DNA of 64,000 nt, from positions 992,001 to 1,056,000 of the forward strand of contig NZ_FTPP01000001.1 in assembly GCF_900156345.1 (NCBI RefSeq). Reading direction: 5' to 3'. Position numbers and translations under genes: made by a program. The stretch comes from Pontibacter indicus (lineage in GTDB: Bacteria > Bacteroidota > Bacteroidia > Cytophagales > Hymenobacteraceae). The notes beneath the pieces were generated by a model. The model made no database searches. It was not told the DNA's origin and saw only the letters and a list, made by a program, of their open reading frames with translations. Below, one piece after another: positions 41,519 to 50,083 of the stretch (its first letter is position 1; the number at the start of each line of letters is the position of its first letter).

Positions 41519-42244
41519 CTAAATGGTGTCCTCGGATTGCGAAGCCTTGTTGCGGTCCACGACTTCCTGGAGTGTGAGCGCCAACAGCTTCTGTATTTCC
41601 TGCCAGCGGCCCCCACCCTGCTGCGGGAATTTCTGGTTTACTTCGAGCTCGATGCCTATGTACTCGTCAGCCTTAAACTTGCGACGCAGGTAGGTCGGGA
41701 AACCGTCGGCTATACCTAGGTATGGATAATTGAAGCGAATCAGCAAATCTTTGTCGGCTTTGTTTAGAGCGGTTTTCCATGCCTTGCTGTAAGCCTGTTC
41801 GTTTTTCCGTTTCGGGTCGTACAGGAGGCCGATGTCTGCCTGCCGCTCCTCACCGTTCAGGACGGGTGTGAAGGTATGCACAGCCACATGCAACACGCTT
41901 CTGCCTGCCGACACAAAATCTGACACCATTTGCTCCACTTGCTCCCGGTAAGGCTTGTAGTGTTTTTTCAGCAGGCGCTCCTTTTCAGTAGGCGGCAGCA
42001 ACTGGGTATAAGCAGAGAATAGTTTGGCATGATGGAGGGATCGGTTCAGCTCTACCAAAAGCCGGCTCGTCTCTGAAAAAAAGCCTACATCCGCTATAGA
42101 TCTCAGGGTATGATAAATTTCCAAAGCCCCGATATCGTAGCCCTGGTGTGTTTTAAGTATTTCTTCCTGCCCCTGAAAGAGTGGTGCATAGGCAGCGGGA
42201 ATCTGGTTACCTCCGTGTTCGCAGGTCAGCAGTAGTCTCAGCAT
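41519..42244 (-). CDS. N-formylglutamate amidohydrolase family protein
   Basis: 241 residues. TCEHGGNQIPAAY with the metal-binding His/Asp/Glu set, LVELNRSLHH and LHVAVHTFTPVL match the FGase family, which hydrolyses N-formyl or other N-acyl-glutamates. Its start overlaps the end of the GCS2 ligase gene by seven bases. As the last gene of a tight four-gene unit, it probably trims or recycles the product of the two ligases. Confidence 0.88.
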   Translation of the reverse strand: MLRLLLTCEHGGNQIPAAYAPLFQGQEEILKTHQGYDIGALEIYHTLRSIADVGFFSETSRLLVELNRSLHHAKLFSAYTQLLPPTEKERLLKKHYKPYREQVEQMVSDFVSAGRSVLHVAVHTFTPVLNGEERQADIGLLYDPKRKNEQAYSKAWKTALNKADKDLLIRFNYPYLGIADGFPTYLRRKFKADEYIGIELEVNQKFPQQGGGRWQEIQKLLALTLQEVVDRNKASQSEDTI

Positions 42245-43494
42245 GGTTTTTCAGGTATAAATACGTCGCCATTTTGCAGGCAACGGGAAAGGCTCAGGTA
42301 TACACGCTTTATGTCCTGCTCAGTTGGGTTCTCACCCATTGCTTCTACAATGCGCTTGGACAGGCAGCCGCGCGATAGGATGACGTTGAGGGCGTGGGCC
42401 ACATGTGGCTGTTCTTCGAGGTTGAGCGTCTCGGCTACCAGGTGCTTCCAAAGCTCGCCTACGGTGCAGTTATCCTTGCAATCGAAACCAAAGCAATCGA
42501 TAAAGTCACGGTCGTTGATCACGACTTCCTGGCCGCTGCGCACCACCTGCAAAAATAAATCCGACAAGCGGTTTTCGTCCCACTGCTTCAATTTGTCTAT
42601 ACCTACCCAACGCTCCGCTATCAGTGCCTGTATGGCCGCTACCACTGCTTGCAGCACGGCCAGGTCGGCCACCGGACTTTCCTGAATGTCGATGATGCGG
42701 ATTTCGATGGCACTGCGGTCGAAGCGGGCGATGGCACCGCGTGAGTTCAGGAATTCCTCCTGCAGCACGCCCTCCGGATCGTGTGGCGCCACAGCTTCAT
42801 ACATGCGATTCAGGATCTGCTCCTCGTAATCCTTTTGCGTGAAAACCGGCTCGGGCACCACCTTGCCGGCAATGGCCGGAATTCGGCCCTGGTTTTTACG
42901 GTATACCTCCAGGCGCGTGTCCAGCAAACCCGAAGCCTTGCCGTCCAGCACAGGCGAGGACGCAGCCAACGCAGGTATAAGGGGCAGCACCATCCGGATG
43001 GCCGCATGCAGCTTTCCGAACTCCTCATCATCACCAAAAGGCAGGTTCAGGTGCGTGCTTTGCAGGTTGGCCCAGCCGTGCCCGCGACAATCGAAGATAC
43101 GGTTATAGGCTTCGTACACGGCGTTGTGCTCGTGCGGCCAAAGTTTGGTCTCTTTGAAAGGATCCATCAAGGGGTGCGCTCCGGTCGGCAGCAGCATGGC
43201 GTTGTGCTTCTCGAGCAGCTGGTTGATCTTCCGGACGTGTTCCTGAAAATCGTTTTCCAAGCCGAGCAAGGTATGGGCAGGCGACTGCGTTTTGAGCTCT
43301 ACCACATGCAGCACCAACTCGTTGGACCAGGCCATTTTGCCGAACTCCACATCCGACACATAGGCGCCCACCTCGTCGTAGATCAACTGGTCTGTGATGG
43401 GCCGCACCTGCAGGGTGTCCCGGTCCACGATCATATACTCCATTTCCACGCCATAGCCTTCAAACAGGTGCAGCGTCACGGGTTTAGTACTCAT
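42238..43494 (-). CDS. GCS2-type carboxylate-amine ligase (glutamate-cysteine ligase family)
   Basis: About 418 residues. FEGYGVEMEYMIVD, HVVELKTQSPA, GTHLN-like STHLNLPFGDD and ARFDRSAIEIRIIDIQESPV match the GCS2 ligase superfamily, which joins an amino group to a glutamyl carboxylate using ATP. The start is ATG 43494 (MSTKPVTLHL); the frame overlaps the ATP-grasp gene end by 11 bases. It is not a canonical gshA, and its partner genes differ from glutathione synthesis. Confidence 0.88.
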   Translation of the reverse strand: MSTKPVTLHLFEGYGVEMEYMIVDRDTLQVRPITDQLIYDEVGAYVSDVEFGKMAWSNELVLHVVELKTQSPAHTLLGLENDFQEHVRKINQLLEKHNAMLLPTGAHPLMDPFKETKLWPHEHNAVYEAYNRIFDCRGHGWANLQSTHLNLPFGDDEEFGKLHAAIRMVLPLIPALAASSPVLDGKASGLLDTRLEVYRKNQGRIPAIAGKVVPEPVFTQKDYEEQILNRMYEAVAPHDPEGVLQEEFLNSRGAIARFDRSAIEIRIIDIQESPVADLAVLQAVVAAIQALIAERWVGIDKLKQWDENRLSDLFLQVVRSGQEVVINDRDFIDCFGFDCKDNCTVGELWKHLVAETLNLEEQPHVAHALNVILSRGCLSKRIVEAMGENPTEQDIKRVYLSLSRCLQNGDVFIPEKPC

Positions 43495-44959
43495 CTGTTT
43501 TAACGTTCTTGTTGTCATCTATGCGTTTCTTTATGGATTTAAGGATAGCGGTGTAAAGCTCTTTTTTGAGTATCTGGTCCTCGCAGCCGGCGTCGATGCT
43601 CGGGTTGTCATTTACCTCAATCACGTAGGCTTTGCCGTCTATCTCCTTAATATCCACTCCATACAGCCCGTTGCCGATCAGGTTCGCCGCTTTAATGGCC
43701 GTGTGCAGCACCACGAAGGGTACCTCTTCAAACGGCACCGTTTCATGATCCCCCTCTGTGTCGTTCTTCTTGCCGTTCCAGTTATAGATCTGCCAGTGTC
43801 CTTTGGCCATGAAGTACTTGCAGGCGTAGAGCGGTTGTTTGTCCAGAATGCCGATGCGCCAGTCAAAGTCCGTCGGGGTAAACTCTTGCCCGATGATCAA
43901 CTCAGAATCAGCCAGCATTTCGTCCAACTCACGCTGCAGACCTTCGCTATCCTTGGCCTTTACGACACCTTGCGAAAAAGAGCTGTCCGGTTTTTTGAGC
44001 ACGCACGGTATACCTAGCTCCTGCTCCACCAGCTCGCGGTTGTCTTTGTGGATGATCATGGTCTTGGGGATGGGCACTTTGGCTTTGGCAAGCAATTCGG
44101 CCAGGTATACCTTGTTGGTGCAACGCAGGATCGAGATCGGGTCGTCGATCACCACCAGGCCATCGGCATAGGCTTTGCGCGCGAACTTGTAGGTATGGTG
44201 ATTCACCGAAGTGGTCTCGCGTATGAAGAGAGCATCAAACTCGGCCAGCCTGCGGTAATCGTCTTTCGTGATCATCTCCACATAAAAACCCATGCCCTCA
44301 CCGGCCTCGACAAAGTGCTGCAGGGCCTTCTTATTAGAGGGCGGTTCTTTCTCGTTCGGATCGTGCAGAATGGCCAAGTCGTAGATTTTATTCCGGCCGA
44401 TCTTAGCACCCGAAAAGCGGTGTCGGGCAAAGTAAGATTTGGCAAAGCGCACCAGGTAGCGCCAGTGATGCTCCGGCACATCGTTGATCGGTATGGCCGA
44501 AATGCTCTGCAGCACCCACTCATCTTTGTAGACGAACTGGGCCCGCAGGAGCGGTGCCTGGAACAGGTCATGCAATTGCTTACAAAGCTTCTCGTACTTC
44601 TGAGCCACATTCTGACCAAAGTAAATGCTAAGCGTGAAGGACTTGGACCGCAGACTTCCCAGCGTTTTGTGGATCAGGTCGTTGAGCTCCACCGTGATGG
44701 CCCGCACGATGGTGGGACTTTTGAGGTCCTGCATGGTGGCCACGCTAGGTATAGGTTTGTGCCCGCGCGCCTCGGCCAACAGCGACACGTAGTAGCCGGC
44801 ACTCTGGTATTTATAGGAACGGCACAGGTTAAATATGCGGGCATTCTTGATGTCAGTATAAGTGGTATCGGTCAGATAAGTCTGCACATCCACTACTTCC
44901 ACGTCTTCAATCGCCACATCCCAGTCTTTGGGATTATCCACTACAACTATTTTTCGCAT
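43484..44959 (-). CDS. RLAN-domain RimK-like ATP-grasp ligase
   Basis: 491 residues. An N-terminal RLAN-type domain (about 1-180) precedes a RimK-like ATP-grasp domain: PKTMIIHKDNRELVEQELGI, the KKPDSSFSQGVVKAK glycine-rich loop, DFDWRIGILD, and the metal-binding end VIEVNDNPSIDAGCED. Such enzymes add amino acids to peptides or small molecules. It starts three bases after the C39-like gene ends. Confidence 0.9.
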   Translation of the reverse strand: MRKIVVVDNPKDWDVAIEDVEVVDVQTYLTDTTYTDIKNARIFNLCRSYKYQSAGYYVSLLAEARGHKPIPSVATMQDLKSPTIVRAITVELNDLIHKTLGSLRSKSFTLSIYFGQNVAQKYEKLCKQLHDLFQAPLLRAQFVYKDEWVLQSISAIPINDVPEHHWRYLVRFAKSYFARHRFSGAKIGRNKIYDLAILHDPNEKEPPSNKKALQHFVEAGEGMGFYVEMITKDDYRRLAEFDALFIRETTSVNHHTYKFARKAYADGLVVIDDPISILRCTNKVYLAELLAKAKVPIPKTMIIHKDNRELVEQELGIPCVLKKPDSSFSQGVVKAKDSEGLQRELDEMLADSELIIGQEFTPTDFDWRIGILDKQPLYACKYFMAKGHWQIYNWNGKKNDTEGDHETVPFEEVPFVVLHTAIKAANLIGNGLYGVDIKEIDGKAYVIEVNDNPSIDAGCEDQILKKELYTAILKSIKKRIDDNKNVKTDEY

Positions 44960-44962
44960 GAT

Positions 44963-45685
44963 TTATTCGTCGATGGGTTCAGCGTCCACTGGCTTTATGG
45001 CAAGCAGGTTGGCATCAAAAGTGGCCATGCCCAGCATAATGGAATTGAGCAGGTGCGATGCTTTCACCTCGTAGTAATTGTTTTTAAAGTAAGGGTTTTC
45101 TTTATAGGGGTCTGCCACCACAATCTGCTTCTGGTCGTCGGCAAAGCCACAGAGCACCACAAAATGCCCCATTGGGTAGCCGCGCACATCGTCGTAAATG
45201 GAGTTGCCCGCCTCGTCGCTCGTCTCGCGGGAGCTTTGGTACAAATAGGTGGCGCTGAGGCCGGTGAGCAGGGGAATGCCTTTCTCGAAATACTCGCGCA
45301 GCAGCCCTTTGGTCAGGTCCGTGCAGCGCAGCTCGCCTCCTCTTTGCAGAAAATCGATATAGGCCATGGTGGCCCGCCTGAACTTGGCGCCTTTCTTGAA
45401 CTCCAGTTGATTCTCCAGTTTTTCAATGATCTCGTCGTTGCTGAGTTGGAACCAGGTTGGATCAAAAATATGCAGATTGTAGGTATAGATGCGGGCTTTA
45501 TAACCTCGTTCCAGGGCATGACAAGCCAGTAGCACCTCCAGCGTACCGCCCTCGTCCAGATACGGTACTTCTTTGATTACCTCGCTCAGGGAGATGGAAT
45601 CGTTGAAATAACGGTATACCGCGTGCAGACTAGTGGGTCCGCAAGTGGAATCGTCGGGTTGCGTATGGATCTTGATCGGAATCAC
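44963..45685 (-). CDS. C39-like papain-fold peptidase
   Basis: 240 residues. The catalytic Cys about residue 15 lies in QPDDSTCGPTSLHAVYRYF, the His in GYPMGHFVVLCGF (about 174) and the Asp in VVADPYKENP (about 192), so the triad is complete. It has no TM export domain, unlike bacteriocin-processing C39 transporters. It heads the operon with the two ligases and the N-formylglutamate amidohydrolase. It may cleave a peptide precursor or the ligated product. Confidence 0.88.
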   Translation of the reverse strand: MIPIKIHTQPDDSTCGPTSLHAVYRYFNDSISLSEVIKEVPYLDEGGTLEVLLACHALERGYKARIYTYNLHIFDPTWFQLSNDEIIEKLENQLEFKKGAKFRRATMAYIDFLQRGGELRCTDLTKGLLREYFEKGIPLLTGLSATYLYQSSRETSDEAGNSIYDDVRGYPMGHFVVLCGFADDQKQIVVADPYKENPYFKNNYYEVKASHLLNSIMLGMATFDANLLAIKPVDAEPIDE

Positions 45686-45881
45686 AGGCAGCTTTTTTGT
45701 GTTGCACTTAAAACAGTGTGCCTGTTATACGCGGACCAGGAAAGAAGTTATCTGTATTTTAGAAAGAAGAAGTATGAGTATCTGGTAGGGCCGGCACCCT
45801 ATTTGCGTTCAAAAAAAGGTAGCTTATGTTGGGTAATATGAGCTGAAAACGTATCTTGTCTTATATTAAATCCTGTTGATT

Positions 45882-46568: not shown

Positions 46569-46750
46569 GTTGGGGAGTTTAAGAGTTTGAGAGTTTAGGA
46601 GTTTAAAATTTTGATCCTTTATTTAAACACTAAAGGCCTGCTGGTGCAGGCCTTTAGTGTTTTCGAGGTATAGCGACGATTATAATTTAAGAGAAAAGGT
46701 TGATAAGATTCAAACTCACAACTTCCCAAACTCTCTAACTCCTAAACTTA
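46567..46750. repeat. Inverted low-complexity repeat flanking a terminator
   Basis: The left part (GGGAGTTTAAGAGTTTGAGA from about 46572) and the right part (CCCAAACTCTCTAACTCC, about 46726-46743) are rough reverse complements around the perfect terminator at 46625-46662. The unit (AGTTTRRGAG) recurs three to four times per arm. The right arm reaches into the last codons of argH. Confidence 0.6.
46625..46665. terminator. Bidirectional terminator between MCP-like gene and argH
   Basis: A perfect 17-bp stem (AAACACTAAAGGCCTGC at 46625-46641, complement at 46646-46662) with the four-base loop TGGT and a T run on the plus side and A run on the minus side. It lies between convergent genes. Confidence 0.9.
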
Positions 46751-48079
46751 ACTCACTAACTCTTTCAGCGCCTTCTCTGCACGTTCAAAGTTAAACTCAG
46801 CGATGGCTTGCTGCATCAGAGTAGTGATCTGCTCGTTACACAGGTTGCCGAGGCTACCTTCGTGGGTGTGTTCTACCGAGTCAGGTATAGCAAAGGTACC
46901 CTGCTCAATGCTTTCTCCTACTTTTTTGTAGGCATCACGGAAGGGCAGTCCACCCAGCACTTCGGCATTCACCGCGTCTACGCTGAAGGCGTACTTGTAC
47001 AGCTCATCTTCCATGATGCGGTCGCGCACTTTCAGCTGCGGCAGCATAAAGGCCATCATCTGCAGACAATCCTTCAGTGTGCTGATCGCCGGGAATAGGG
47101 ATTCTTTGAGCAGCTGCAGTTCGCGGTGATACCCAGAAGGTAAGTTGATCAGGAGCATGGAGATCTCCGTTGGCAGAGCCTGTAGCCTGTTGCACTTACC
47201 GCGCATGATCTCGAACACGTCCGGATTCTTTTTATGCGGCATGATGCTGGAGCCGGTCGTCAGGTTATCCGGCAAAGTCACAAAAGCAAAGTTCTGGCTC
47301 ATGTATAGGCACAGGTCCATGGACATACGCGCCAGTGTAGCCGCCACAGAAGCAATAGCCGTGCTTACCACCCGTTCTGTTTTGCCCCGTCCCATCTGCG
47401 CATACACCACATTGTAGTTCATCGTGCCGAAGCCAAGCAAGTCAGTGGTTAGTTGGCGGTTGAGCGGGAACGAAGAACCGTAACCGGCAGCTGAGCCCAG
47501 CGGGTTTTTGTCAACAATCTTGTAGGCCGACTGCAGTAGCAGCACATCATCTACTAGGCTCTCGGCATAGGCGCCAAACCAAAGTCCAAAAGAAGATGGC
47601 ATGGCCACTTGCAGGTGGGTGTACCCAGGCAGTAATTTGTCTTTGTGTCGCTCACTCAGCTCCTGCAGCACATCAAAAAGCGCCTTCACCTCCTGCACCA
47701 CTTGTTGCAGTTCATGGCGCAGGTATAGCTTCAGGTCCACTAGCACCTGGTCGTTGCGCGAGCGGCCGCTGTGAATTTTCTTGCCGGCTTCCCCCAGTTT
47801 GCGCGTTAGCTCCAGCTCAACCTGCGAGTGAATGTCCTCCACACCTGGCTCGATTGTAAAATCACCTGCCACAATGCGGTGGTAAATAGCCTTCATCTCC
47901 TGCTGCAACGCGTCCAGGTCTTCTTTACCGAGCAAGCCCACCTGCTCCAGCATGCGTGTGTGCGCCAGCGAACCCAGCACGTCAAAAGCAGCCAGCTGCA
48001 TGTCAAATTCAGGGTCACGACCCACTGTAAATTCCTCTATCTCTTTTTTGACGTCGGTGTTCTTTTGCCAGAGTTTCAT
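46748..48079 (-). CDS. argH: Argininosuccinate lyase
   Basis: 443 residues. The enzyme splits argininosuccinate to arginine and fumarate. GSSIMPHKKNPDVFEIMRG is the signature GSSxMPxKxN loop with the catalytic Ser and Lys, and LDVHSQVE-like (VEDIHSQVELELTRKLGEAG) and HSGRSRNDQV are the other conserved blocks. It is the last gene of the arginine operon. Confidence 0.96.
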   Translation of the reverse strand: MKLWQKNTDVKKEIEEFTVGRDPEFDMQLAAFDVLGSLAHTRMLEQVGLLGKEDLDALQQEMKAIYHRIVAGDFTIEPGVEDIHSQVELELTRKLGEAGKKIHSGRSRNDQVLVDLKLYLRHELQQVVQEVKALFDVLQELSERHKDKLLPGYTHLQVAMPSSFGLWFGAYAESLVDDVLLLQSAYKIVDKNPLGSAAGYGSSFPLNRQLTTDLLGFGTMNYNVVYAQMGRGKTERVVSTAIASVAATLARMSMDLCLYMSQNFAFVTLPDNLTTGSSIMPHKKNPDVFEIMRGKCNRLQALPTEISMLLINLPSGYHRELQLLKESLFPAISTLKDCLQMMAFMLPQLKVRDRIMEDELYKYAFSVDAVNAEVLGGLPFRDAYKKVGESIEQGTFAIPDSVEHTHEGSLGNLCNEQITTLMQQAIAEFNFERAEKALKELVS

Positions 48080-48080
48080 G

Positions 48081-48121
48081 ATTTGATTGAGTGAGTTAGT
48101 GTTTGAGTGAATGAGTGATTT
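48081..48121. repeat. Single GAGTGA-family repeat arm
   Basis: GATTTGATTGAGTGAGTTAG and the following bases match the arms of the inverted repeat at 8396-8595. The arm begins one base after the argH start codon on the plus strand, between argH and argE. Confidence 0.65.
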
Positions 48122-48149
48122 TTTTCTTTCTATCGTTTCGGACCCTAGT

Positions 48150-48197
48150 GAGAAATCTGAGATACTCGTCAGAACCGTGAACCAATCCAGATTTCTC
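48150..48197. repeat. Short inverted repeat (GAGAAATCTG) between argH and argE
   Basis: GAGAAATCTG at 48150-48159 and CAGATTTCTC at 48188-48197 are perfect 10-base reverse complements. The flank CGTCGAGATGACA continues the right side. It resembles REP-like elements. Confidence 0.6.
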
Positions 48198-48228
48198 CTA
48201 TCGTCGAGATGACACTGAAGCGAAAAAG

Positions 48229-49293
48229 TTATTTAACTACCCTTTCTAAGATATCAATGTAAAGCGCTATACCTTCTTCGATCTCCTGCAGGTAAATAAA
48301 CTCGTCTGCCATATGCGAACGAGCAGAATCACCGGGACCCAGCTTGAGCGAAGGTATGGAAAGCAGGGCTTGGTCAGAGGTTGTCGGGGAGCCGTAGGTA
48401 GTACGGCCCAATGCTATACCTGCCTGCACCAACGGATGCTCCATCGGGATAGACGATGGCTTCAGGCGCATGGAACGAGGCGTAACCTCGGCCTTCACAT
48501 GCTGCCGTATCACCTCCAGCACTTCCTCCATGGAATAAGCATCCGTCAGGCGAACATCCACCGTGAATTTACATTTGTCCGGCACCACATTATGCTGTGA
48601 GCCAGCCTCTATCATGGTCACCGACATTTTCACAGGTCCCAGGTGCTCCGACACGTTCGGGAAACGGTAGGTCTGGAACCAGGTAATGTCCGGCAAGGCT
48701 TCGTAAATCGCATTCAAGCCTTCCTCCCGGGCGGCATGGCCTGAGCGACCCTTTGCAACACAGTCCAGTACCAGCAGGCCTTTCTCAGCCACTGCCAAAT
48801 GCATCAACGTGGGTTCCCCGACAATAGCCGCTTCCAACTCACCCAATTCCGGCAAGATCAGCTCCAGTCCGTTTCTGCCGGATATTTCTTCCTCTGCCGT
48901 TGCGGCATACACCAGATTATACTTTAAATCCTGTTCTTCATAGAAATACAGGAAAGTAGCTAATAGCGATACCAGGCAACCGCCGGCATCATTGCTGCCT
49001 AAACCATACAGTTTCCCATCTTCAACAGTAGCTGCAAACGGGTTGCGGGTATAGCCGGTGTTGGGTTTTACCGTGTCGTGGTGCGAGTTGAGCAGCAGCG
49101 TAGGCAGTGACGGATCAAAGTGCTTGTTGAAGGCCCAGACATTGTTGAACTTACGGTTTACCGCTACTCCTTTTGATTGCAGAAAGGCGGCAATTACGTC
49201 CGCCGTTTTATCTTCTTCTCTACTGAAAGAAGGTATGGCGATCAGTCGCTGCAAGAGGTCCAGCGCCTGTGGGTATAGACTGTTTTTATCCAT
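48229..49293 (-). CDS. argE: M20-family N-acylornithine deacylase (ArgE-like)
   Basis: 354 residues. LLLNSHHDTVKP, GSNDAGGCLVSLLA and AATAEEEISG are M20 motifs with zinc ligands and the catalytic Asp/Glu. It removes the acetyl or succinyl group from acylornithine. The stop side overlaps the argB frame: its start lies eight bases into the end of argB. The acyl group is not visible; operon context suggests succinyl (see argF'). Confidence 0.9.
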   Translation of the reverse strand: MDKNSLYPQALDLLQRLIAIPSFSREEDKTADVIAAFLQSKGVAVNRKFNNVWAFNKHFDPSLPTLLLNSHHDTVKPNTGYTRNPFAATVEDGKLYGLGSNDAGGCLVSLLATFLYFYEEQDLKYNLVYAATAEEEISGRNGLELILPELGELEAAIVGEPTLMHLAVAEKGLLVLDCVAKGRSGHAAREEGLNAIYEALPDITWFQTYRFPNVSEHLGPVKMSVTMIEAGSQHNVVPDKCKFTVDVRLTDAYSMEEVLEVIRQHVKAEVTPRSMRLKPSSIPMEHPLVQAGIALGRTTYGSPTTSDQALLSIPSLKLGPGDSARSHMADEFIYLQEIEEGIALYIDILERVVK

Positions 49294-50083
49294 GCTTCAG
49301 CGAAATGGTGGTGCCTGTAAAACCTGAACCGGTGGCCAGCGATGGAAGCGCTTCAGCCTCTCCAATCAGCACTGCACTGACGCCATTCTGCAAAGCAGCA
49401 AAGGCGTTGTCGAGTTTCGGGATCATCCCGTCTTTCACCACGCCTTCAGTTTTCAAAGCGCTATACCGGTCTAGGTCAATGTGCGCAATCACAGAATCAT
49501 CATTATCTGCATCGGCCAGTACGCCTTTCTTCTCGAAACAGTACACCAGCTTCACCGCAAAATGCGGCGCCAGTGCCGTTGCCAGCACTGAGGCAATGGT
49601 ATCGGCATTGGTGTTCAATAGGCCGCCCTGACCGTCGTGTGTGAGTGGTGCAAATACCGGTGTTAGCCCTGCCTGTACCAGGGCATGTATGGCGGCAGCA
49701 TTGATCGTTTCTGGACCAGCCACATCTCCCACAAAACCATAGTCAATGGTTTTGACAGGACGCTTAGTCGCAGGTATAGCATTGGCGTCGGCACCCGTCA
49801 TGCCGATAGCGTTGCAGCCAAGTGCCTGCAGCTGCGCCACCACGTTCTTGTTGATCAGCCCAGCGTAAACCATGGTTACCAACTTGAGTGTTTCAGCGTC
49901 GGTCAGGCGTCGGCCCTCCACGTATTGTGGCTCTATCCCGAGCTGCAGCCCGATGGTAGAGGCGATTTTGCCACCGCCGTGCACCAGTATTTTCGGCCCG
50001 GGCAGCTGCGCGAAATCAATCAAAAAACGCTGCAGCCGCACCGGGTTGTCCAAAACATTGCCGCCGATTTTAATGATGTACAT
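49286..50083 (-). CDS. argB: N-acetylglutamate kinase (or succinylglutamate kinase)
   Basis: 265 residues. YIIKIGGNVLDN at the N-terminus, KILVHGGGKIAS for the gamma-phosphate loop, and GMTGADANAI and GMIPKLDNAF match ArgB. It phosphorylates N-acylglutamate. In this lineage, as in Bacteroides, the acyl group may be succinyl. It overlaps the argE start by eight bases, indicating tight coupling. Confidence 0.93.
   Translation of the reverse strand: MYIIKIGGNVLDNPVRLQRFLIDFAQLPGPKILVHGGGKIASTIGLQLGIEPQYVEGRRLTDAETLKLVTMVYAGLINKNVVAQLQALGCNAIGMTGADANAIPATKRPVKTIDYGFVGDVAGPETINAAAIHALVQAGLTPVFAPLTHDGQGGLLNTNADTIASVLATALAPHFAVKLVYCFEKKGVLADADNDDSVIAHIDLDRYSALKTEGVVKDGMIPKLDNAFAALQNGVSAVLIGEAEALPSLATGSGFTGTTISLKHG

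Follow-up and report, generated by a model that had tools for sequence, protein, structure and literature searches.

What might be made, and unmade, by two ligases and two hydrolases that are encoded together? The question is raised by a four-gene operon in a 64,000-nucleotide stretch of Pontibacter indicus DNA (referred to here as the window). Iyer et al. in 2009 reportedly predicted that such RimK/GCS2-type amidoligase associations make unusual peptides. The window operon has the same kinds of families and falls under the same general prediction. Counts of gene linkage, an alternation of GCS2 with GNAT, and viral pairs in which GNAT accompanies an RLAN-less ATP-grasp gene come from the present analysis. 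We propose, with a probability of about 0.4, that the operon's product is a small N-capped peptide or amino-acid conjugate of the cytosol, which the encoded enzymes can also trim.

Gene layout and protein families

All four genes (Table 1) are co-directional with a spacing of -35 to +3 bases, as expected from the packed unit in the preliminary description, and every product matches its Pfam family above the cut-off. The gap between the C39 and RLAN genes is 3 bases, GCS2 and FGase overlap by 7 bases, and RLAN and GCS2 overlap by 35 bases, or by 11 if GCS2 begins at its codon-9 methionine, a start that agrees with several homologues. A consensus promoter scan of the putative promoter region gave fewer sites than in shuffled sequences. 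None of the four proteins matched a PADLOC anti-phage defence model at E 0.01.

Table 1. Features of the operon (positions within the window)
Feature	Positions	Strand	Remarks
C39-like (papain-fold) cysteine peptidase or transpeptidase	44963-45685	-	240 aa, GTG start; Q9/C15/H174/D192 kept
RLAN (~residues 1-190) + complete LysX/ArgX/RimK-like ATP-grasp ligase (193-481)	43484-44959	-	491 aa
GCS2-family carboxylate-amine ligase, separate subfamily	42238-43518	-	426 aa; alternative start 43494
FGase-family (N-formylglutamate amidohydrolase-like) hydrolase	41519-42244	-	241 aa
Putative promoter region	45686-45875		190-base gap to divergent 4HB_MCP gene

The two ligases belong to different ATP-dependent carboxylate-amine ligase families, RLAN/RimK and GCS2, as had been described. 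In the first of them, RLAN (PF14401) scores 164.3 bits (cut-off 25) and lies N-terminal to the ATP-grasp part, where RimK scores 45.6 bits (21); the NCBIfam models rimK_fam (TIGR00768; 61.3 vs 143.4) and LysX_arch (61.6 vs 275.6) both stay under their cut-offs. Structure comparison of residues 193-481 found the fold of ArgX, LysX and RimK at Z 27-28, with RimK and LysX tied, and the fold match list of the ligase was filled by this ATP-grasp part. The window ligase differs from these enzymes by its extra RLAN domain, and no carrier-protein gene was recognised beside it among neighbour clusters and small ORFs. Among phage families, the ATP-grasp proteins encoded in the window and at locus L243 had a weak match to a ribosomal protein S6 modification family.

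The predicted structure of the GCS2 protein (pLDDT 90.3) shows the fold of glutamate-cysteine ligases. Its nearest structures are 1tt4 (Z 36.4, rmsd 3.0, 348 aligned) and the YbdK entry 1r8g (Z 35.7), followed by the plant GCL 2gwc at Z 33.1; glutamine synthetase reaches 14.5 at best. An identity as Pup ligase or Dop was rejected on the lack of a Pfam match and on a Z of about 20 at best for Dop/PafA, against 36 for YbdK. Pfam gave GCS2 (PF04107) at 99.4 bits (cut-off 21) and otherwise a sub-cut-off DUF483 match only. The core motif residues E25, E27, E67, E74, H115, N151, H156, R202, E272, R274 and D277 of the GCS2 protein recur in other PF04107 proteins of the phylum draw (390 genomes), of which the 30 with the best scores were compared, and the protein shares its fold with YbdK-type ligases (Z 36). 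It is set apart by 14% identity to YbdK, by an extra block at 252-266 and by columns in which it differs, K76, W149 and Q153 among them, and forms a separate subfamily that was seen only at RLAN loci in the phylum draw. The preliminary description would have fallen had this protein proved an ordinary glutamate-cysteine ligase; all nine GCL or YbdK NCBIfam models listed are under their cut-offs (best 56.5 vs 371, also 53.9 vs 176.4).

Both hydrolases are recognised by Pfam. The C39 protein matches Peptidase_C39_2 at 37.2 bits (cut-off 24) and Peptidase_C39 at 24.2 (22), and Q9, C15, H174 and D192 are invariant across 13/13 aligned rows, which confirms the intact Cys/His/Asp triad claimed earlier. 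The C39 peptidases of bacteriocin exporters are fused to ABC transporters, whereas the window protein, at 240 aa, has no transporter domain match. For the last protein, labelled an N-acylglutamate hydrolase in the preliminary description, membership of the FGase family (PF05013) stands at 76.2 bits (cut-off 28.9), but the HutG equivalog model (TIGR02017) gives 12.7 bits vs a cut-off of 278.75.

Linkage of the genes and alternation of GCS2 with GNAT

Over-cut-off RLAN matches were present in 43 of the 390 phylum-draw genomes; a sub-cut-off match in G517, a fragment with stops, was left out of the RLAN counts. The GCS2 subfamily of the window occurs in 30/390 genomes, every time adjoining RLAN. 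Among 135 classified loci, which are biased to near relatives because the contig profile search supplied the best 80 of 134 matches, RLAN adjoins this GCS2 at 117, with a gap of 20 bases or less at 109 of the 117. This adjacency is far beyond chance, and the operon is an inherited module. The neighbours are thus conserved together in other genomes, without which the preliminary reading could not have stood. Within the locus, RLAN/ATP-grasp and GCS2 are the genes that vary least. The operon was seen in Bacteroidota, Fibrobacterota, one Nitrospinota metagenome genome and one Legionella record. Of the 69 genomes over the cut-off in the family-level search, 30 were viewed as short loci and 8 over a length of 13 kb, and the Pseudomonadota sample consisted of 5 of 15 plasmid records.

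The hydrolases are less constant. Operon-type FGase is linked at 20/29 GCS2-type loci other than the window's own and at 0/13 GNAT-type loci. The FGase profile A2, which covers operon-type FGase only and overlooked a second FGase of the own genome, found none in the nine GCS2 genomes without linked FGase nor in the 13 GNAT genomes (3/3 controls positive). All 27 full-length C39 profile matches, from a search that had positives, lie at RLAN loci; two of them (G437 and G350) have an internal stop within the match, and one additional weak partial match was found in genome G341 (E 9.6e-7). In a profile search run without a positive control, window-type C39 was found in 0/21 Flavobacterial or GNAT-type genomes; this absence covers the window type only, because one of the 21, G303, has a DUF3335-type C39 domain (L193) which the profile overlooked.

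When the 43 RLAN genomes were sorted by locus content, 30 had the GCS2 subfamily, 13 had a GNAT, either as a neighbour of the ATP-grasp gene or fused to it, and none had both. Matches to the five rows from which the GNAT model was built (L138, L144-L146 and L148) are so by construction. This GCS2/GNAT swap at the RLAN locus appears to be new here. Not every GNAT obeys the alternation: a GNAT-nitrilase fusion gene, overlooked by the GNAT model, accompanies GCS2 at 8 Flavobacteriaceae loci, where it lies upstream on the same strand (350 bases or less in 7/8). An ordinary GCS2 gene with a high score is present away from the locus in the GNAT-type genome G370, and several other GNAT-type genomes have weak PF04107 matches. 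Two loci, L147 and L052 (the latter on a 6.5-kb contig), have neither GCS2 nor GNAT beside RLAN, and the GNAT gene of L149 is divergent.

Tree analysis suggests that GCS2/GNAT swapping may have been repeated. In a tree of the 43 GCS2- or GNAT-labelled rows (an earlier 47-row tree minus three rows with neither label and the very long branch L193), the two GNAT groups join in 0/200 bootstrap trees and the best tree needs two changes; the starred branches force one change only, and a single GNAT clade has a p-AU of 0.052. A count of at least two forced changes from the 47-row tree was dropped, as it may come from the three unlabelled rows. At 4/8 viral loci (L245-L248) the ATP-grasp gene belongs to this family but lacks RLAN, and a GNAT gene overlaps it; the GNAT of L246 matched acetyltransferase families among the phage families. 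No GCS2 was confirmed in the viral contigs. A search for further viral relatives returned seven loci, six on contigs already in the set and one weak (25%).

Neighbouring genes and small ORFs

Small ORFs of 20-89 aa were collected up to 1.2 kb from the loci, 3779 in all; their clustering gave 63 clusters with at least five loci, 52 of them mostly inside larger genes. Examples of the other 11 come from Pontibacter loci, where they lie on the strand opposite the operon and occur in no more than 10 loci, and from Anaerophaga/Marinilabilia-type loci, with 5 loci each; some of the latter are presumably ribosomal proteins. The co-conserved substrate peptides envisaged earlier did not emerge: the clusters held no convincing conserved ORF within this distance, a weak negative which nonetheless weakens the peptide-precursor version. 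On the whole, conserved linkage and a non-ordinary GCS2 hold from the earlier interpretation, its substrate-peptide version has lost ground, and its N-acylglutamate hydrolase label applies at the family level.

No conserved outside partner was found among the 45 largest neighbour clusters, which reflect lineage synteny only. DnaJ, Pmp3, ArgH-like and other genes recur in Pontibacter relatives, and neighbours of the GNAT-RLAN fusions are common to a few related genomes only. Other clusters are the GNAT-nitrilase gene at 8 Flavobacteriaceae loci and an unannotated 577-aa protein at 12 loci. Two examples of the 577-aa protein had no Pfam match, and an HxxE motif read by eye leads us to guess that it may be a zinc peptidase.

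Proposed product and competing explanations

For the capped peptide or conjugate proposed above, the ATP-grasp enzyme would form an amide at a substrate carboxylate, in keeping with its LysX/ArgX/RimK-like fold, and the RLAN domain probably helps to hold the substrate. The GCS2 enzyme would cap an amine, most likely with gamma-glutamate, as its fold and conserved motif residues suggest. Lineages that have a GNAT acetyltransferase instead of GCS2 would make an acetyl cap. In our reading, the amino end of one and the same ligase product is capped by GCS2 or else by GNAT. The FGase, which was seen together with GCS2 only, would probably cleave the N-acyl bond in what GCS2 has made, and C39 would trim or transfer peptide bonds. 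A wider version is offered tentatively: widespread non-ribosomal capped-peptide pathways may combine an RLAN/ATP-grasp ligase with a GCS2 capper, reversible by FGase, or with a GNAT capper, viruses also carrying a minimal GNAT and ligase, and the window product may be a gamma-glutamyl, glutathione-like metabolite. If true, this would supply the type of reaction that had been missing for an orphan operon and make its product testable; a new bacterial glutathione-like peptide would be of interest for redox, osmotic stress and peptide natural products.

The genes could instead serve protein or peptide tagging, with RLAN recognising a carboxyl end, ATP-grasp and GCS2 adding amino acids, and C39 and FGase removing them. 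Two ligases beside two hydrolases suit such writer/eraser logic, the ATP-grasp part stands equally near LysX and RimK, the latter a modifier of ribosomal protein S6, and the GNAT at the related locus L148 is RimI-like (87.4 bits, cut-off 86.4). We nevertheless hold tagging to be doubtful, with neither a conserved carrier gene nor a convincing small ORF beside the locus, a sporadic unit (30/390 genomes) and lineage-bound neighbours of the GNAT-RLAN fusions. It is unlikely, too, that the genes make and turn over a storage peptide or a polymer akin to oligo- or polyglutamate, with FGase and C39 as depolymerases. The title of entry 5zct calls RimK a poly-alpha-glutamate peptide synthetase, and both hydrolase families could conceivably cut such bonds, but outside single lineages the recurrent neighbours include no transporter, anchor or polymer gene, and a GNAT cap enzyme as the alternative to GCS2 suits chain ends more than chain growth.

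There is little to recommend catabolism or salvage, in which C39 and FGase would degrade N-acyl-glutamate or peptides, leaving pieces for the ligases to detoxify or recycle. HutG belongs to the FGase family and arginine-pathway-like genes adjoin the operon in Pontibacter relatives; against this, the FGase is under the HutG cut-off, those neighbours recur in Pontibacter-type loci only, and it is the ligase pair that is most constant. Slighter still is the chance of an ordinary glutathione-type pathway, where GCS2 would give gamma-glutamylcysteine and a glutathione synthetase encoded elsewhere would complete it. The fold would suit, GCS2 is the sole PF04107 gene of the own genome, and contig C7 carries a GSH-S-type ATP-grasp gene; yet GCS2 is far under every listed NCBIfam ligase cut-off, which makes such synthesis unlikely, and the C7 gene sits in a separate MATCAP/FGase cluster. 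GSH-S matches exceed 170 bits in 3/43 RLAN genomes (own, G358 and G318), the best among the remainder being 82.4 bits and seven having none.

Glutathione synthesis, in which a GCS-type ligase is followed by an ATP-grasp ligase, resembles the window operon in that a gamma-glutamyl ligase of glutamine-synthetase fold works alongside an amide ligase of the ATP-grasp type. The window operon differs by its other GCS2 subfamily, a LysX/RimK-type rather than GshB-type ATP-grasp, RLAN and two hydrolases, and has no general link to GSH-S genes. Our literature search, with most subscription journals outside it, found no paper on this operon, and excerpts of PMC5867869, PMC4431377 and PMC8939145 contain nothing on it beyond a reference to Iyer 2009. 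A precedent for capping comes from the osmolyte NAGGN: according to excerpts of PMC8070244, Ngg both acetylates one glutamine and links it to a second, and synthesis involves Ngg, AsnO and an operon-borne peptidase gene. As far as these excerpts go, acetylation and ATP-dependent joining on one dipeptide are similar in plan to the GNAT-RLAN-ATP-grasp fusions, whereas the window operon has GCS2, not GNAT. Among families with an E value no higher than 0.1, none of the four window proteins has NAGGN synthetase (TIGR03103), and the GNAT-C39 protein of L148 scores 36 bits against its cut-off of 569.

Conservation and linkage of the operon

The four genes listed first in the table, spaced by +3, -35 (or -11) and -7 bases, constitute an inherited module. 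Of the 150 family-draw genomes, 69 have a PF14401 match above its cut-off (4 of 6 genera at E 0.001), as do 43 of the 395 in the phylum draw, own genome included. The genome lies nearest to Pontibacter: among the best 80 of 134 matches, the RLAN/ATP-grasp protein is 97% identical to counterparts that include those of P. ramchanderi, P. amylolyticus and P. virosus. We fetched 8-13 kb around each of the 42 non-own RLAN loci of the phylum draw. A GCS2 gene was found in 29 and a GNAT acetyltransferase gene in 13, never both at one locus (0/42); the C39 gene was linked in 26 of the 29 GCS2 loci and the FGase gene in 20. When the phylum was searched with an operon-GCS2 profile (390 genomes, vs 395 for PF14401), all 30 matching genomes, own genome included, had the match at an RLAN locus. 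Since any PF04107 match occurs far more widely (217/390), the linkage is specific to the operon-type GCS2 subfamily. The C39 profile gave 27 full-length matches, all at RLAN loci, plus a weak partial match in one genome (G341). Junctions of 20 bases or fewer prevail for C39-RLAN (77/86), RLAN-GCS2 (109/117) and GCS2-FGase (88/93).

Iyer et al. reportedly predicted these families and their association in 2009. A literature search, with most subscription journals outside its reach, found no paper on this four-gene operon; added here are counts for the linkage, the alternation of GCS2 with GNAT, and the pairs of GNAT and ligase genes on viral contigs.

Locations of the operon, its neighbors and related loci (L, fetched locus; C7 and C8, contigs of the window's genome)
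Feature	Location	Strand or arrangement
C39-like peptidase, RLAN + ATP-grasp ligase, GCS2 ligase, FGase-family hydrolase	window 41519-45685	minus
4HB_MCP gene	upstream of operon	divergent
Pmp3-domain gene	downstream of operon	141-base gap
Arginine-pathway-like genes (a lyase, an M20 peptidase, a 265-aa ORF)	window 46748-50083, upstream	operon strand
GNAT-type arrangement 1	L138, L144	GNAT-RLAN-ATP-grasp fusion
GNAT-type arrangement 2	Azospirillum L148, Tistrella L150	GNAT-C39 fusion gene, then RLAN/ATP-grasp gene
GNAT-type arrangement 3	L193	separate RLAN (207 aa), ATP-grasp (298 aa), GNAT-C39 (373 aa)
GNAT-type arrangement 4	Aeromonas L149	GNAT gene divergent
Viral GNAT + RLAN-less ATP-grasp pairs	L245:3496-4903, L246:3555-4867, L247:3523-4891, L248:3573-4834	
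Unannotated protein, ~577 aa	L061:4179-5912 and 11 other loci	same strand, upstream of RLAN
GNAT-nitrilase fusion gene	L075:4367-5893 and 7 other loci	upstream of Flavobacteriaceae RLAN-GCS2 set
Split GCS2 frames	L152:4270-6989, L081:7449-8616	
GSH-S-type ATP-grasp (349 aa), MATCAP-family protein (PF08014), second FGase (271 aa)	L205:5685-9428 (C7, about 325.7-329.4 kb)	adjacent, one strand
Open frames of 882 and 897 aa	C8:153000, C8:428824	

The arginine-pathway-like genes recur near the operon in Pontibacter-type loci; the 265-aa ORF presumably resembles an N-acetylglutamate kinase.

Alternation of GCS2 and GNAT

The 135 classified loci, many of them near relatives, comprise 117 GCS2-type, 15 GNAT-type and 3 classed as neither (L147, L052 and L149, the last with a divergent GNAT neighbor). 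GCS2-type loci occur in many Bacteroidota, Fibrobacter, Chitinispirillaceae, one Nitrospinota MAG and one Legionella adelaidensis record, annotated there as RimK family protein, glutamate-cysteine ligase family protein and N-formylglutamate amidohydrolase. Flavobacteriaceae loci keep RLAN-GCS2-FGase and lack C39. GNAT-type loci take four arrangements. An hhalign comparison relates the two C39 groups to each other (probability 92.8, E 4.1e-7), with the Cys and the His/Asp regions aligned. The ~577-aa protein has a possible zinc-peptidase HxxE motif. The split frames, which in L152 also affect RLAN/ATP-grasp, may reflect sequencing error or decay.

Six of eight viral loci carry a related ATP-grasp gene without RLAN (38-45% identity), and in four of the six the GNAT gene overlaps its start. 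No GNAT gene lies beside the ATP-grasp gene in L243 and L244, which appear to be one region; L249 is truncated where its contig ends, and in L250, which retains part of RLAN, neither GCS2 nor GNAT is present. Against an annotated phage collection, the L246 ligase found weak relatives only (3 records, 23-27% identity).

Because GCS2 and GNAT alternate, they are suggested to do comparable work, each acylating an amine. The alternation has limits. In a tree of 43 GCS2- or GNAT-labelled rows, excluding L193 (long branch), the best tree requires two changes and 0/200 bootstrap trees need only one, but no more than one change is forced by well-supported branches, and testing for a single GNAT clade gives p-AU 0.052. 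If there was just one swap, the exclusion contrasts two old lineages and is less telling on function. The exclusion is also limited to the GNAT type modelled, since eight GCS2-bearing Flavobacteriaceae loci have GNAT-nitrilase upstream of RLAN. In addition, genome G370, of the GNAT type, carries an ordinary GCS2 gene at another site.

Folds and a putative N-capped peptide

The GCS2 model (pLDDT 90.3) best matches YbdK (1tt4, Z 36.4, rmsd 3.0, 348 aligned; 1r8g, Z 35.7), with plant GCL 2gwc also close (Z 33.1). Its core motif residues recur in the 30 other PF04107 proteins of the phylum that score best, while these proteins mostly have a gap opposite an extra block, at about residues 252-266, that contains invariant residues. 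In the RLAN/ATP-grasp model (pLDDT 84.6, pTM 0.71), residues 193-481 form a complete ArgX/LysX/RimK-like enzyme (3vpb, Z 28.1, rmsd 2.4, 267 aligned); RLAN is therefore an added domain outside the ligase fold. The single PDB relative of the FGase by sequence is 2odf (Atu2144, E 2e-15), with CEH, H33, D37 and HSFTP-type positions conserved.

Glutathione synthesis uses a glutamine-synthetase-fold gamma-glutamyl ligase and an ATP-grasp ligase. The operon is alike in this pairing, but neither enzyme has the scores or fold of the glutathione type proper, and a strong GSH-S match occurs in just 3 of 43 RLAN genomes, own genome included. GCS2, or GNAT elsewhere, would acylate the amine of a putative small peptide, and the FGase, judging from its family, would act on an N-acyl bond on glutamate. 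Among the loci and genomes examined, the operon-type FGase was found only with GCS2; the GCS2 product, whole or in part, is therefore its probable substrate. For acetylation paired with amide joining, a studied precedent is NAGGN, where one protein both acetylates a glutamine and joins it to another glutamine (PMC8070244). The alternation, this precedent and the FGase-GCS2 tie therefore lead us to favor a small N-capped peptide as the operon product (probability about 0.4) over a protein-tagging system, which we consider rather unlikely.

Other putative ligase genes in the genome

The C7 cluster is a second ligase/hydrolase cluster, so FGase occurs beside ATP-grasp ligases in two distinct contexts; its PF08014 member belongs to the microtubule-associated tyrosine carboxypeptidase family. 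The two C8 frames have RimK-type ATP-grasp matches and are possibly cyanophycin-synthetase-like, a guess from their length.
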